Source: an uncultured Pelagibacteraceae bacterium (GTDB lineage Bacteria; Pseudomonadota; Alphaproteobacteria; Pelagibacterales; Pelagibacteraceae). From it: 64,000 nt of DNA. Shown piece after piece: positions 12,021 through 52,447 of this stretch. The translations under genes and the position numbers were made by a program. The notes under the pieces are model-generated. The model was not told the DNA's origin and did not search any database. It saw nothing but the letters and a program-made list of their open reading frames with translations. The stretch spans positions 56,362 to 120,361 of the forward strand of contig CACAIN010000002.1 in the NCBI GenBank assembly GCA_902532595.1, in the 5' to 3' direction. Within the stretch, counting starts at the first letter, position 1, and every line of letters begins with the position of its first letter.

Positions 12021-12099
12021 CCGCAAAATCACAAGCTTTTTGCGGTGCTCTTAGATTTAAGAGTGTCGACACTAGTCAGCGAAGGTTCGCCCACTAGTG
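12021..12099 (+). ncRNA. Structured 5' leader of ffh (three hairpins)
   Basis: CCGCAAAA/TTTTGCGG (12021-12045), CTCTTA-GATT-TAAGAG (12048-12063), CACTAGT-ca-GCGA-AGGT-TCGC-cc-ACTAGTG arrangement (12070-12099). Confidence 0.6.
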
Positions 12100-12122
12100 C
12101 GATAGGTGTTGCGTGTAATGAA

Positions 12123-49468: not shown

Positions 49469-50061
49469 TATCCTATTAAAAATATTCCAAGTTTAGAAAA
49501 AAAGTTTTTAATTTCAAGGTTGCTTTTTTTAATCTCTGAAGTCTTATCTTCATTAACACCCACAACTCTATTAATTTTAATATTTTTTTCTAAACAAAAA
49601 TGAAATAAATCTTTAATTGTGCACATGTGCAGATTAGGAGTGTTATACCAAGAATTTGGTAATGTTTTAGTAACGGGCATCTTTCCAAAAAATAGTAAAC
49701 TAGTCCTAACCTTCCAATACCCAAAATTAGGTATTGATATGACTACTGATTTTCCGATTCTTAACAGATCTTTTAGAACTTTTTCAGGATTATAAAAGGC
49801 TTGGAGTGTTTGACTTAATATAACAAAATCAAAGGATTGATTTGGAAATTGATGAAGCTCTGTCTCTGCATTGCCTTCAATGACTGGAAGACCTTTATAA
49901 ATACATTTAGTAACGTTTTCTTTTTTAAGCTCTAAACCACGAGCTTCTATGTTTTTTTCTTTAATTAAATGATTCATTAAAGAACCATCTCCACAACCCA
50001 CATCGAGAACTCTTACATTCTTGGGTAATAAATCTGCTATTACTTTAAATTCTTTTTTCAT
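49468..50061 (-). CDS. metW: Methionine biosynthesis protein MetW
   Basis: VRVLDVGCGDGSLMNHL; NFGYWKVRTSLLFFGKMPVTKTLPNSWYNTPNLHMCTIKDL; follows metX. Confidence 0.95.
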   Translation of the reverse strand: MKKEFKVIADLLPKNVRVLDVGCGDGSLMNHLIKEKNIEARGLELKKENVTKCIYKGLPVIEGNAETELHQFPNQSFDFVILSQTLQAFYNPEKVLKDLLRIGKSVVISIPNFGYWKVRTSLLFFGKMPVTKTLPNSWYNTPNLHMCTIKDLFHFCLEKNIKINRVVGVNEDKTSEIKKSNLEIKNFFSKLGIFLIG

Positions 50062-51184
50062 TTTTAAATTTTATATGCATCGAGTCTATAAATCCTTTTA
50101 AAGTTTTAAGAAACTCTGGCTCTTCTAATAAAAAGGAATCGTGACCTTTGTCAGTTTTAATTTCTGAAAAAGAGACATCTGCTCCAGAAGCGTTAAGAGC
50201 AATGACTATATCTTTATTTTCTTTTGTCGTATAAAGCCAGTCTGAAGAGAAAGAGATGACTAAAAATTTTGTTTTTTGACTTTTGAAAGCCTCAAGTAGA
50301 CCGCCTTTAAAATGTTTAGACAAATCAAAATAATCCATAGCTCTAGTAATGTATAAGATAGAGTTTGCGTCAAATCTTTCTACAAAAGCGCTGCCTTGAT
50401 GTCTTAAATAGCTTTCAACTTGAAAATCAGCATCAAAACTAAATTCATAATCAGCTTTTTCTTGAAGTTTTCTTCCAAATTTTTCTTGCATTCCTTTCTC
50501 GGATAAATAACTGATATGACCTACCATTCTTGCTACGGCTAATCCATTTTTAGGTTGAACATTTTTTTTTAAATATTTCCCTTTTTCCCACACTGGATCT
50601 GCCATAATAGCTTGCCGAGCTAATTCATTAAGAGCAATATTTTGTGCACTATGGCTTGTGCTACAAGCAATAGGAATTGCAGAAAATGTCTTATTTGGGA
50701 ATATTGTGCAAAATTCAAGAGACTGCATTCCACCCATTGAACCTCCTGTAGCGCAGAGAAGTTTCTCTATTCCCAGATGATTTAAAAGAGCTTCTTGTGC
50801 TTTAACCATATCTCTTATTGTTATAACTGGAAAATTTAATCCATATGGTTCATTTGTTTTTTTATCTATTTCTTTAGGACCCCAGGAACCCATACATCCA
50901 CCAATCACATTTGCACAAATCACAAAATATTTGTCTGTGTCTATTGCTTTACCTGGTCCTACAGCAGTTACCCACCATCCTTCTTTTTTTGTTACTGGAT
51001 TTATTCCACTAACAAATTGATCGCCTGTAAGTGCATGAAAAACTAATATAGCATTATCCTTAAATTTGTTTAGTTTGCCATAAGTTTCATATGCTAAAGG
51101 AAAATCTTTAATAGTTTGACCACAGTCTAATTTAAGTGGTTTAGAGACATTAATAGTCTTAATATTTTCAGTTTTATAGTTCAT
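50045..51184 (-). CDS. metX: Homoserine O-acetyltransferase MetX
   Basis: YETYGKLNKFKDNAILVFHALTGDQFVSG, ATGGSMGGMQSLEF, SSDWLYTTKENKDIV, DKGHDSFLLE. Confidence 0.95.
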   Translation of the reverse strand: MNYKTENIKTINVSKPLKLDCGQTIKDFPLAYETYGKLNKFKDNAILVFHALTGDQFVSGINPVTKKEGWWVTAVGPGKAIDTDKYFVICANVIGGCMGSWGPKEIDKKTNEPYGLNFPVITIRDMVKAQEALLNHLGIEKLLCATGGSMGGMQSLEFCTIFPNKTFSAIPIACSTSHSAQNIALNELARQAIMADPVWEKGKYLKKNVQPKNGLAVARMVGHISYLSEKGMQEKFGRKLQEKADYEFSFDADFQVESYLRHQGSAFVERFDANSILYITRAMDYFDLSKHFKGGLLEAFKSQKTKFLVISFSSDWLYTTKENKDIVIALNASGADVSFSEIKTDKGHDSFLLEEPEFLKTLKGFIDSMHIKFKNEKRI

Positions 51185-51186
51185 CC

Positions 51187-51212
51187 AAAAAAAAAGCCCA
51201 GCTAAACTGGGC
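51187..51212 (-). terminator. Intrinsic terminator immediately 5' of metX ATG
   Basis: Minus strand GCCCAG-TTTAG-CTGGGC followed by nine T, then GG and ATG. Confidence 0.85.
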
Positions 51213-51216
51213 GAAC

Positions 51217-51269
51217 CCCTTTTTAGCTAAATTTGTTATGCGCTTGCAATATGGTTAAATCAGCGCTCC
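51217..51269 (-). promoter_or_regulatory. SAM-II riboswitch aptamer upstream of metX
   Basis: Minus strand GGAGCGCTGATTTAACCATATTGCAAGCGCATAACAAATTTAGCTAAAAAGGG closely matches the remembered SAM-II metX consensus (GCGCTGATTTAACC..ATTGCAAGCGC...AGCTAAAAAGGG). Confidence 0.93.
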
Positions 51270-51272
51270 TAA

Positions 51273-51301
51273 TGTTTACTAGATCGTCTTAAACTTGTCA
51301 A
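51273..51301 (-). promoter_or_regulatory. Promoter of SAM-II/metX transcript
   Basis: Minus strand TTGACA (51301-51296), 17 bp, TAAACA (51278-51273); expected start about 51266 at the aptamer 5' edge. Confidence 0.7.
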
Positions 51302-51345
51302 TTTTATATGGGAAGAAAGATTTATAGAAATCATCGAACATTTTA

Positions 51346-51351
51346 TATAAT
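51346..51351 (+). promoter_or_regulatory. -10-like TATAAT upstream of hisC (no convincing -35)
   Basis: TATAAT 14 nt before ATG 51365; implies a very short 5' UTR if used. Confidence 0.35.
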
Positions 51352-51364
51352 ACATTGAATTAAC

Positions 51365-52447
51365 ATGAGATTACCTAAACCAAAAAAGATTGTAGCCCAG
51401 AAGTATGTATCTGGCCTGAGCTTATTTAAGCAAAAAATGATTAAAATTAAATTATCTGCTAACGAGTCTGCTCTTGGTCCAAGCCCTAAAGCAATCAAAG
51501 AATATAATAAAGTATCTAAGAATTTTAAAAGGTATCCAGATACCAATGGTACAACTTTAAAAAAAGTTATAGCCAACAAATTTAAAATAGATAAAGATAG
51601 AATAGTACTTGGTTCTGGGTCTGATCAGATATTTGAACTTGCTTGTAACGCTTTTATAAAAAAAAATGATGAAGTAATTGTTCCTAAATACAGTTTTATA
51701 ATATACAGGATTTACAGCAAGCTTAATGGTGCAAAAATTATTTATGCTAAAGAAAAAAATTTTACTATATCTGTTAAAGATATACTTTCTAAAGTAACTA
51801 GAAAGACTAAAGTAGTTTTTTTAGCAAATCCTAATAATCCTACAGGTACTTACATTACTAAAAAAGAAGTAATGCATTTAAGAAAAAAACTTAGAAGTGA
51901 TATCCTTCTTGTTATAGACGATGCATATTCTGAATATTTAAATGAAAAAGATTATTTGCCTGGTTTAAAATTATTTTCTAAATATAAAAATGTTTTAGTG
52001 ACAAGAACATTTTCCAAAGTTTATGGATTAGCTGGATTAAGAGTAGGATGGGGATATGCTTCTAAAGAGATTATTAACACTTTAAATCTAATTAAACCTC
52101 CTTTTAATGTTAATAGACCAGCTTTGTTTGCTGCTTCTGCAGCTGTAAGAGATGTTAGTTGGCTCAAAAAAGAAGTTAATCATATTCGTAAATGGAATAA
52201 GATATTATTTAAAAAATTTAAAGAAATGAAAATCGCAACAAATGAAAGTAAAATAAATTTTTTATTGTTAAATTTTGATAGAGTTAATATAAGTTCTAAG
52301 AAAGTATTTCAAAAATTAGGCAATGCAGGTATTTTGGTTAGAGCAATGAATATTTATGGAATAAAGAATTCTTTAAGGATTACTATTGGAAAGAGTAAAG
52401 AAAATAAAAAGTTAATTTCTATATTTAGGAAAATTTTAAATGTTTAA
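51365..52447 (+). CDS. hisC: Histidinol-phosphate / aromatic aminotransferase
   Basis: LSANESALGPSPKAI, FLANPNNPTGTYI, TRTFSKVYGLAGLRVGWGYA. Confidence 0.92.
   Translation: MRLPKPKKIVAQKYVSGLSLFKQKMIKIKLSANESALGPSPKAIKEYNKVSKNFKRYPDTNGTTLKKVIANKFKIDKDRIVLGSGSDQIFELACNAFIKKNDEVIVPKYSFIIYRIYSKLNGAKIIYAKEKNFTISVKDILSKVTRKTKVVFLANPNNPTGTYITKKEVMHLRKKLRSDILLVIDDAYSEYLNEKDYLPGLKLFSKYKNVLVTRTFSKVYGLAGLRVGWGYASKEIINTLNLIKPPFNVNRPALFAASAAVRDVSWLKKEVNHIRKWNKILFKKFKEMKIATNESKINFLLLNFDRVNISSKKVFQKLGNAGILVRAMNIYGIKNSLRITIGKSKENKKLISIFRKILNV

Follow-up and report, generated by a model that had tools for sequence, protein, structure and literature searches.

Among the riboswitch classes of alpha-proteobacteria, SAM-II is the one that most frequently comes with a terminator (Barrick and Breaker, PMC2258182; PMC1273637). 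In these systems (metA / SAM_alpha, RF00521) an H-type pseudoknot lies 5' of a methionine gene and a terminator is placed between P2 and the gene, together forming an OFF switch, and in both respects the metX leader described here is alike. It differs from the predicted terminators that were listed class-wide (PMC1273637, PMC2258182) in that it scores under the Rfam cut-off. The earlier note on this leader had held that a transcriptional output would be unusual for SAM-II, but this argument from rarity fails, because terminators are an established feature of the class (PMC2258182, PMC1273637). What deserves attention is rather the filing of the metX aptamer as translational.

The gene metX is a known SAM-II context, and SAM-II 5' of metX is known from 'Cand. 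Pelagibacter ubique' (PMC2704228). The metX SAM-II RNA from the Sargasso Sea (PDB 2QWY) has been described as a translational switch, in which AAAGGG is a Shine-Dalgarno (SD) sequence that is hidden in P2 (PMC10907184, PMC9373788, PMC12434664), and SD occlusion has also been stated for the same aptamer in PMC6061858, whereas in the leaders described here a terminator and a U9 tract lie between the GGG and the AUG. In S. meliloti, metZ has a predicted SAM-dependent terminator, like the metX leader, and metA shows the same succession of aptamer, terminator and AUG; metA differs in that no antiterminator is predicted, that a first start codon (AUG1) lies 5' of the terminator and that translation at a distance has been reported (PMC9373788). 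The tandem SAM-II/SAM-V riboswitch of bhmT in 'Cand. Pelagibacter ubique' (PMC11508383, PMC9481103) likewise has a SAM-II followed by a terminator, but with another terminator stem and, after it, a translational SAM-V. Its SAM-II domain loses the SAM response when the linker is present and regains it upon addition of linker oligonucleotides, by which the authors were puzzled (PMC11508383). For SAR11 metX, no antiterminator is described in the literature examined.

The metX leader and its probable promoter

The window (i.e. the whole stretch of 64,000 nucleotides that was analysed, from an uncultured Pelagibacteraceae bacterium) carries metX, orthologues of which are present in 273/298 genomes of Pelagibacterales. 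On the minus strand, a TTGACA box is followed by a SAM-II-like aptamer (51266-51217) and then by a hairpin (51212-51196), nine U, GG and the metX AUG. The features are as follows:

51296..51301, minus strand: -35 promoter hexamer TTGACA (from the sequence and related loci)
51273..51278, minus strand: -10-like hexamer TAAACA (TATACA, TATATA or similar in relatives)
51262..51266, minus strand: aptamer P1 5' strand GCGCU (pairing kept in 35/35 sequences, compensatory UA to CG)
51253..51261, minus strand: aptamer loop L1 GAUUUAACC with P2a 5' strand CC (P2a pair compensatory CG to UA)
51246..51249, minus strand: aptamer P2b 5' strand UUGC, assigned by analogy to the 2QWY RNA; its pseudoknot partner is GC.AA in the 3' strand
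51240..51244, minus strand: aptamer P1 3' strand AGCGC
51217..51228, minus strand: aptamer 3' strand AGCUAAAAAGGG (P2b/P2a strand when SAM-bound; proposed antiterminator 5' strand when SAM-free)
51200..51228, minus strand: antiterminator hairpin AGCUAAA..GGG-loop-CCC..UUUAGCU (-13.1 kcal/mol alone; conserved in relatives)
51196..51212, minus strand: intrinsic terminator hairpin GCCCAG-UUUAG-CUGGGC (computed fold; sole terminator-like site in 51100-51420)
51187..51195, minus strand: U9 tract of the terminator, ending 2 nt 5' of the metX AUG
50045..51184, minus strand: metX (homoserine O-acyltransferase family), the gene under control, with its AUG at 51184

A stricter consensus promoter scan of the window gave no match, and the metX promoter is argued solely from the conserved TTGACA. 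The combination of TTGACA, a 17-nt spacer and a TA-rich -10 is found in most of 80 related loci, and a looser promoter pattern matches in 79/80. Transcription of the metX leader would start near 51266.

Identity of the aptamer

Pairing within the aptamer was tested on a 35-sequence alignment with slid controls. P1 and the pseudoknot are paired in 99.7% of the cells, the slid controls being far lower. In P1 all cells (100%) are paired and the innermost pair is UA in 26 sequences, CG in 5 and UG in 4; P2b is invariant, while P2a is CG in 29, UA in 3, UG in 2 and unpaired in one, again with far lower slid controls. The covariation in P1 and P2a supports the assignment of the element 5' of metX to SAM-II, as had been claimed for it before. 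The wild-type SAM-II sequence with which it was compared is presumably that of the 2QWY RNA, given its use as wild type in its source. With this crystallised 52-nt RNA, the sequence of which was taken from PMC8494917, the window aptamer is identical at 45/52 positions, and this copy of the metX leader would be expected to bind SAM.

At the gathering score, an Rfam search finds no riboswitch in the window, and a permissive search was required to recover the metX aptamer, which reaches 19.6 bits against SAM_alpha (RF00521), with a gathering cut-off of 36. In fact, the exact crystallised RNA (34.1 bits) also stays under this cut-off, which is passed by 0/246 SAR11-family genomes, and the cut-off is therefore uninformative with respect to membership in SAR11. 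Elsewhere in the window, an ffh motif RNA (RF01793) at 12055-12107 (plus strand) scores 41.9 bits, above its own cut-off.

Terminator and antiterminator

The pairing of AGCUAAA..GGG with CCC..UUUAGCU, which the earlier note had read directly from the letters, is present on the minus strand at 51228-51196, and both its sequence and its coordinates were correct. AGCUAAA occupies 51228-51222 and GGGG 51219-51216, followed by GCCCAG (51212-51207), the loop UUUAG (51206-51202) and CUGGGC (51201-51196). In the alternative hairpin, 7 bp (AGCUAAA/UUUAGCU) are separated by a 2x2 internal loop from a further 3 bp (GGG/CCC); U-G wobbles can lengthen this hairpin (UUUAGCUAAA/UUUAGCUGGG). It shares with the terminator the CCC of the 5' arm, the entire loop and two bases at the start of the 3' arm, and it uses the 3' strand of the aptamer, which confirms the overlap that had been proposed. 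The leader thus has the arrangement of a transcription attenuator, i.e. a terminator before the gene and an antiterminator that overlaps with both aptamer and terminator.

Only one terminator-like site is present in 51100-51420, compared to 0.1 expected from shuffles, and its loop UUUAG ranks 5th of the 1024 possible 5-nt loops by antiterminator stability. In computed folds, the energies of which leave out the pseudoknot, SAM and transcription kinetics, the antiterminator has a probability of 0.99 (terminator 0.005) when the aptamer strand is free and no ligand is present, whereas the terminator has a probability of 0.99999 when the strand is held, mimicking SAM. The antiterminator is computed to be able to form ahead of the completed 3' arm of the terminator during emergence of the RNA. 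The part of the RNA that lies outside the polymerase at U5-U8 folds as the antiterminator, which persists in the computation until the U tract is complete. The minimum free energy fold of the whole leader (-24.4 kcal/mol, z -1.65) was rejected as the switch, since in this fold the A/G tract pairs with the U tract after the decision of the polymerase.

We infer that the choice between the two hairpins is made co-transcriptionally and that SAM switches metX off. Without SAM, the free AGCUAAA..GGG would pair with CCC..UUUAGCU as the RNA leaves the polymerase, and the resulting antiterminator, by consuming the terminator loop as well as parts of both arms, would allow read-through into metX (ON). 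With SAM, the pseudoknot (P2a/P2b) would lock up the aptamer's 3' strand, GCCCAG/CUGGGC would form and the polymerase would halt in U9, 2 nt 5' of the start codon (OFF).

Conservation among SAR11 metX leaders

The comparison covers 81 distinct SAR11 metX leaders having this terminator. The terminator stem is nearly invariant in these leaders, and the U tract is 7-10 long, with 9 U in 71/81 leaders and a minimum of 7. Terminator loops are normally free to vary. Here, UAG is found in the terminator loop of 80/81 leaders, compared to 29 different sequences for the adjacent linker of 8-14 nt, and, ranked against random loops by antiterminator stability, all 81 fall in the top 5% (median 0.3%). The antiterminator has a mean of -12.8 kcal/mol versus -10.6 kcal/mol for the terminator, and is at least as stable as the terminator in 73/81 leaders. 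All 27 leaders with loops other than UUUAG carry a C one base 5' of the helix, which adds a C-G pair, versus only 4/54 of the leaders with a UUUAG loop, although the association between loop variant and extra C is clade-linked and the events are therefore not independent. The pattern GCTAAA..TTTAGC..T7 occurs in 126/256 genomes, versus 4 control matches.

In an alignment of the leaders from other SAR11 genomes, which the earlier note had suggested as a check, the antiterminator stem is conserved within metX (93% of cells paired), but a formal test for covariation of the antiterminator within the metX leaders found none. This absence is to be expected, since one of the two strands is the invariant SAM-binding strand. 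Still, conservation without covariation is not positive proof of an antiterminator, as it could have another cause. Protein-coding constraint on the terminator was rejected, the upstream AUG being missing in 52/81 leaders.

The same design with other stems

The SAM-II leaders of bhmT/metY in the same clade have a terminator with a different stem (CCACC/GGUGG) and a U tract, and its loop (CGCUUUAGC) is complementary to GCUAAAGCG in the aptamer, so that, as in metX, the terminator loop can pair with the aptamer 3' strand. In 33/33 parsed leaders the loop is in the best 5% for pairing with the aptamer strand, and in 31/33 the antiterminator is the free fold. A single compensatory case is found among these leaders (G121, GCUAAAACG with CGUUUUAGC). 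A search that was unbiased with respect to the loop recovered the element in 133/296 genomes, versus 0 in the reversed control.

Pairing of GCUAAAGCG with the linker CGCUUUAGC at equilibrium could silence the SAM-II of the bhmT tandem, and a linker that carries the antiterminator strand is therefore a simple candidate reason for the SAM-II silence in the SAR11 tandem riboswitch. The oligonucleotides in PMC11508383 covered the U tract and the side downstream of it, not the antiterminator strand itself.

In the sister family f2 (g15-g18; L159-L167, L298-L326), the metX terminator stem is CCGCC/GGCGG or CCACC/GGUGG, and nearly all of the loops contain UUAGYUG, which is complementary to CAGCUAA of the aptamer. 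Here the terminator is often the stronger of the two hairpins, and the antiterminator is the computed free fold in just 3/19. These data, like the missing covariation within metX and the lack of such a terminator in the genus g4 (below), count against attenuation at metX.

Other metX platforms in SAR11

The terminator platform is not universal in SAR11. In g4, the largest SAR11 genus (e.g. L178, L206, L221), the aptamer directly abuts U5-9, and a terminator hairpin of this type was not found in the metX leaders. The U tract is followed by CUCACAAUUCA, a complement of UGAAUUGCGAG in the loop/P1 strand of the aptamer; 58/58 distinct leaders fold as an anti-aptamer hairpin, and the complementarity is matched by ~1% of shuffles. 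Possibly, it is the SAM-bound pseudoknot itself that acts as the terminator stem in this genus. In g9/g12 (L146, L152, L154, L155, L157), an SD-like purine run (GAGG/AGGG) comes after the aptamer, then a short hairpin precedes the AUG, and the metX leaders have no U7-10 tract. This may be a translational version, with the hairpin bringing the SD near the AUG.

Transcriptional or translational control

A switch between antiterminator and terminator, as proposed in the earlier note, is the reading best supported by the conservation in 81 leaders, the computed energy balance and the recurrence of the design with another stem in the bhmT/metY paralogues, and on these grounds we consider it likely that the metX leader functions as a SAM-II riboswitch by transcription attenuation. 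If control were translational instead, SAM would lock AAAGGG in P2a and thereby block the ribosome, while the hairpin would merely bring AAGGGG closer to the AUG. SD occlusion is what has been stated for the same aptamer (PMC10907184, PMC6061858, PMC9373788), the g9/g12 leaders (which combine an SD-like run and a short hairpin and lack such a U tract) agree with it, and for S. meliloti metA an SD inside the SAM-II aptamer reportedly serves a start codon that lies 74 nt further 3' (PMC9373788). In the leaders counted, however, 31-48 nt (mostly 32-34 nt) separate the GG run from the metX AUG, which exceeds normal SD spacing, and in the genomes that carry the exact crystallised sequence this distance is 31 nt. 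An AUG is present between GCUAAA and the metX start in 29/81 leaders, in 27 of which it is in frame and open, which favours translational control and reproduces the order of AUG1, terminator and AUG2 of S. meliloti metA. Yet such an upstream AUG is absent in the other 52, including the window, and where present it usually leaves too little space after the GG run for an ordinary SD. Moreover, the U7-10 tract and the complementarity of the loop would be superfluous under translational control, and without SAM the antiterminator would itself bury this GGG. We regard this explanation as quite unlikely; a transcriptional role fits the metX leader better.

The terminator could also be independent of SAM, in which case it would limit metX expression or yield a short RNA, with the aptamer serving mRNA stability or translation. 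S. meliloti metA, where a validated terminator follows the SAM-II aptamer and no antiterminator can be predicted (PMC9373788), is in line with this, as are the f2 leaders, in which the computation often gives the terminator greater stability than the antiterminator. Such a terminator would, however, leave unexplained why the loop is complementary to the aptamer strand (81/81 metX leaders and 33/33 bhmT/metY leaders in the best 5%) and why the antiterminator wins in the computation when that strand is free, and we consider SAM independence unlikely.

The crystallised RNA in its native leader

An RNA identical to the crystallised 52 nt is found 5' of metX in three genomes (L059, G093 and G153), of which G093 and G153 belong to the genus of the window. 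In all three, the next bases after the 52-nt RNA are GAUGCCCAGUUUAGCUGGGCUUUUUUUUUGGAUG, the terminator lies within the 31 nt that separate the GGG from the metX AUG, and an AUG within the linker is in frame with metX. It seems fairly likely that the crystallised metX SAM-II RNA, the best-studied of its class and for more than a decade the model of a translational, SD-occluding riboswitch, is in its native leader a terminator switch, with the supposed SD GGG being the P2a/antiterminator strand, and that at least three platforms have been swapped before metX with the aptamer nearly unchanged. What would be new is the reassignment of this model RNA, since SAM-II with a terminator is already known as a kind. 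Studies of the 52-nt RNA by structural, single-molecule and simulation methods read its dynamics as SD occlusion, whereas its context argues for attenuation, and under transcription attenuation it is the co-transcriptional kinetics of this RNA that would be decisive. In four genomes (L008, L059, L141 and L142) an AUG in frame with metX lies immediately 3' of the GG run.
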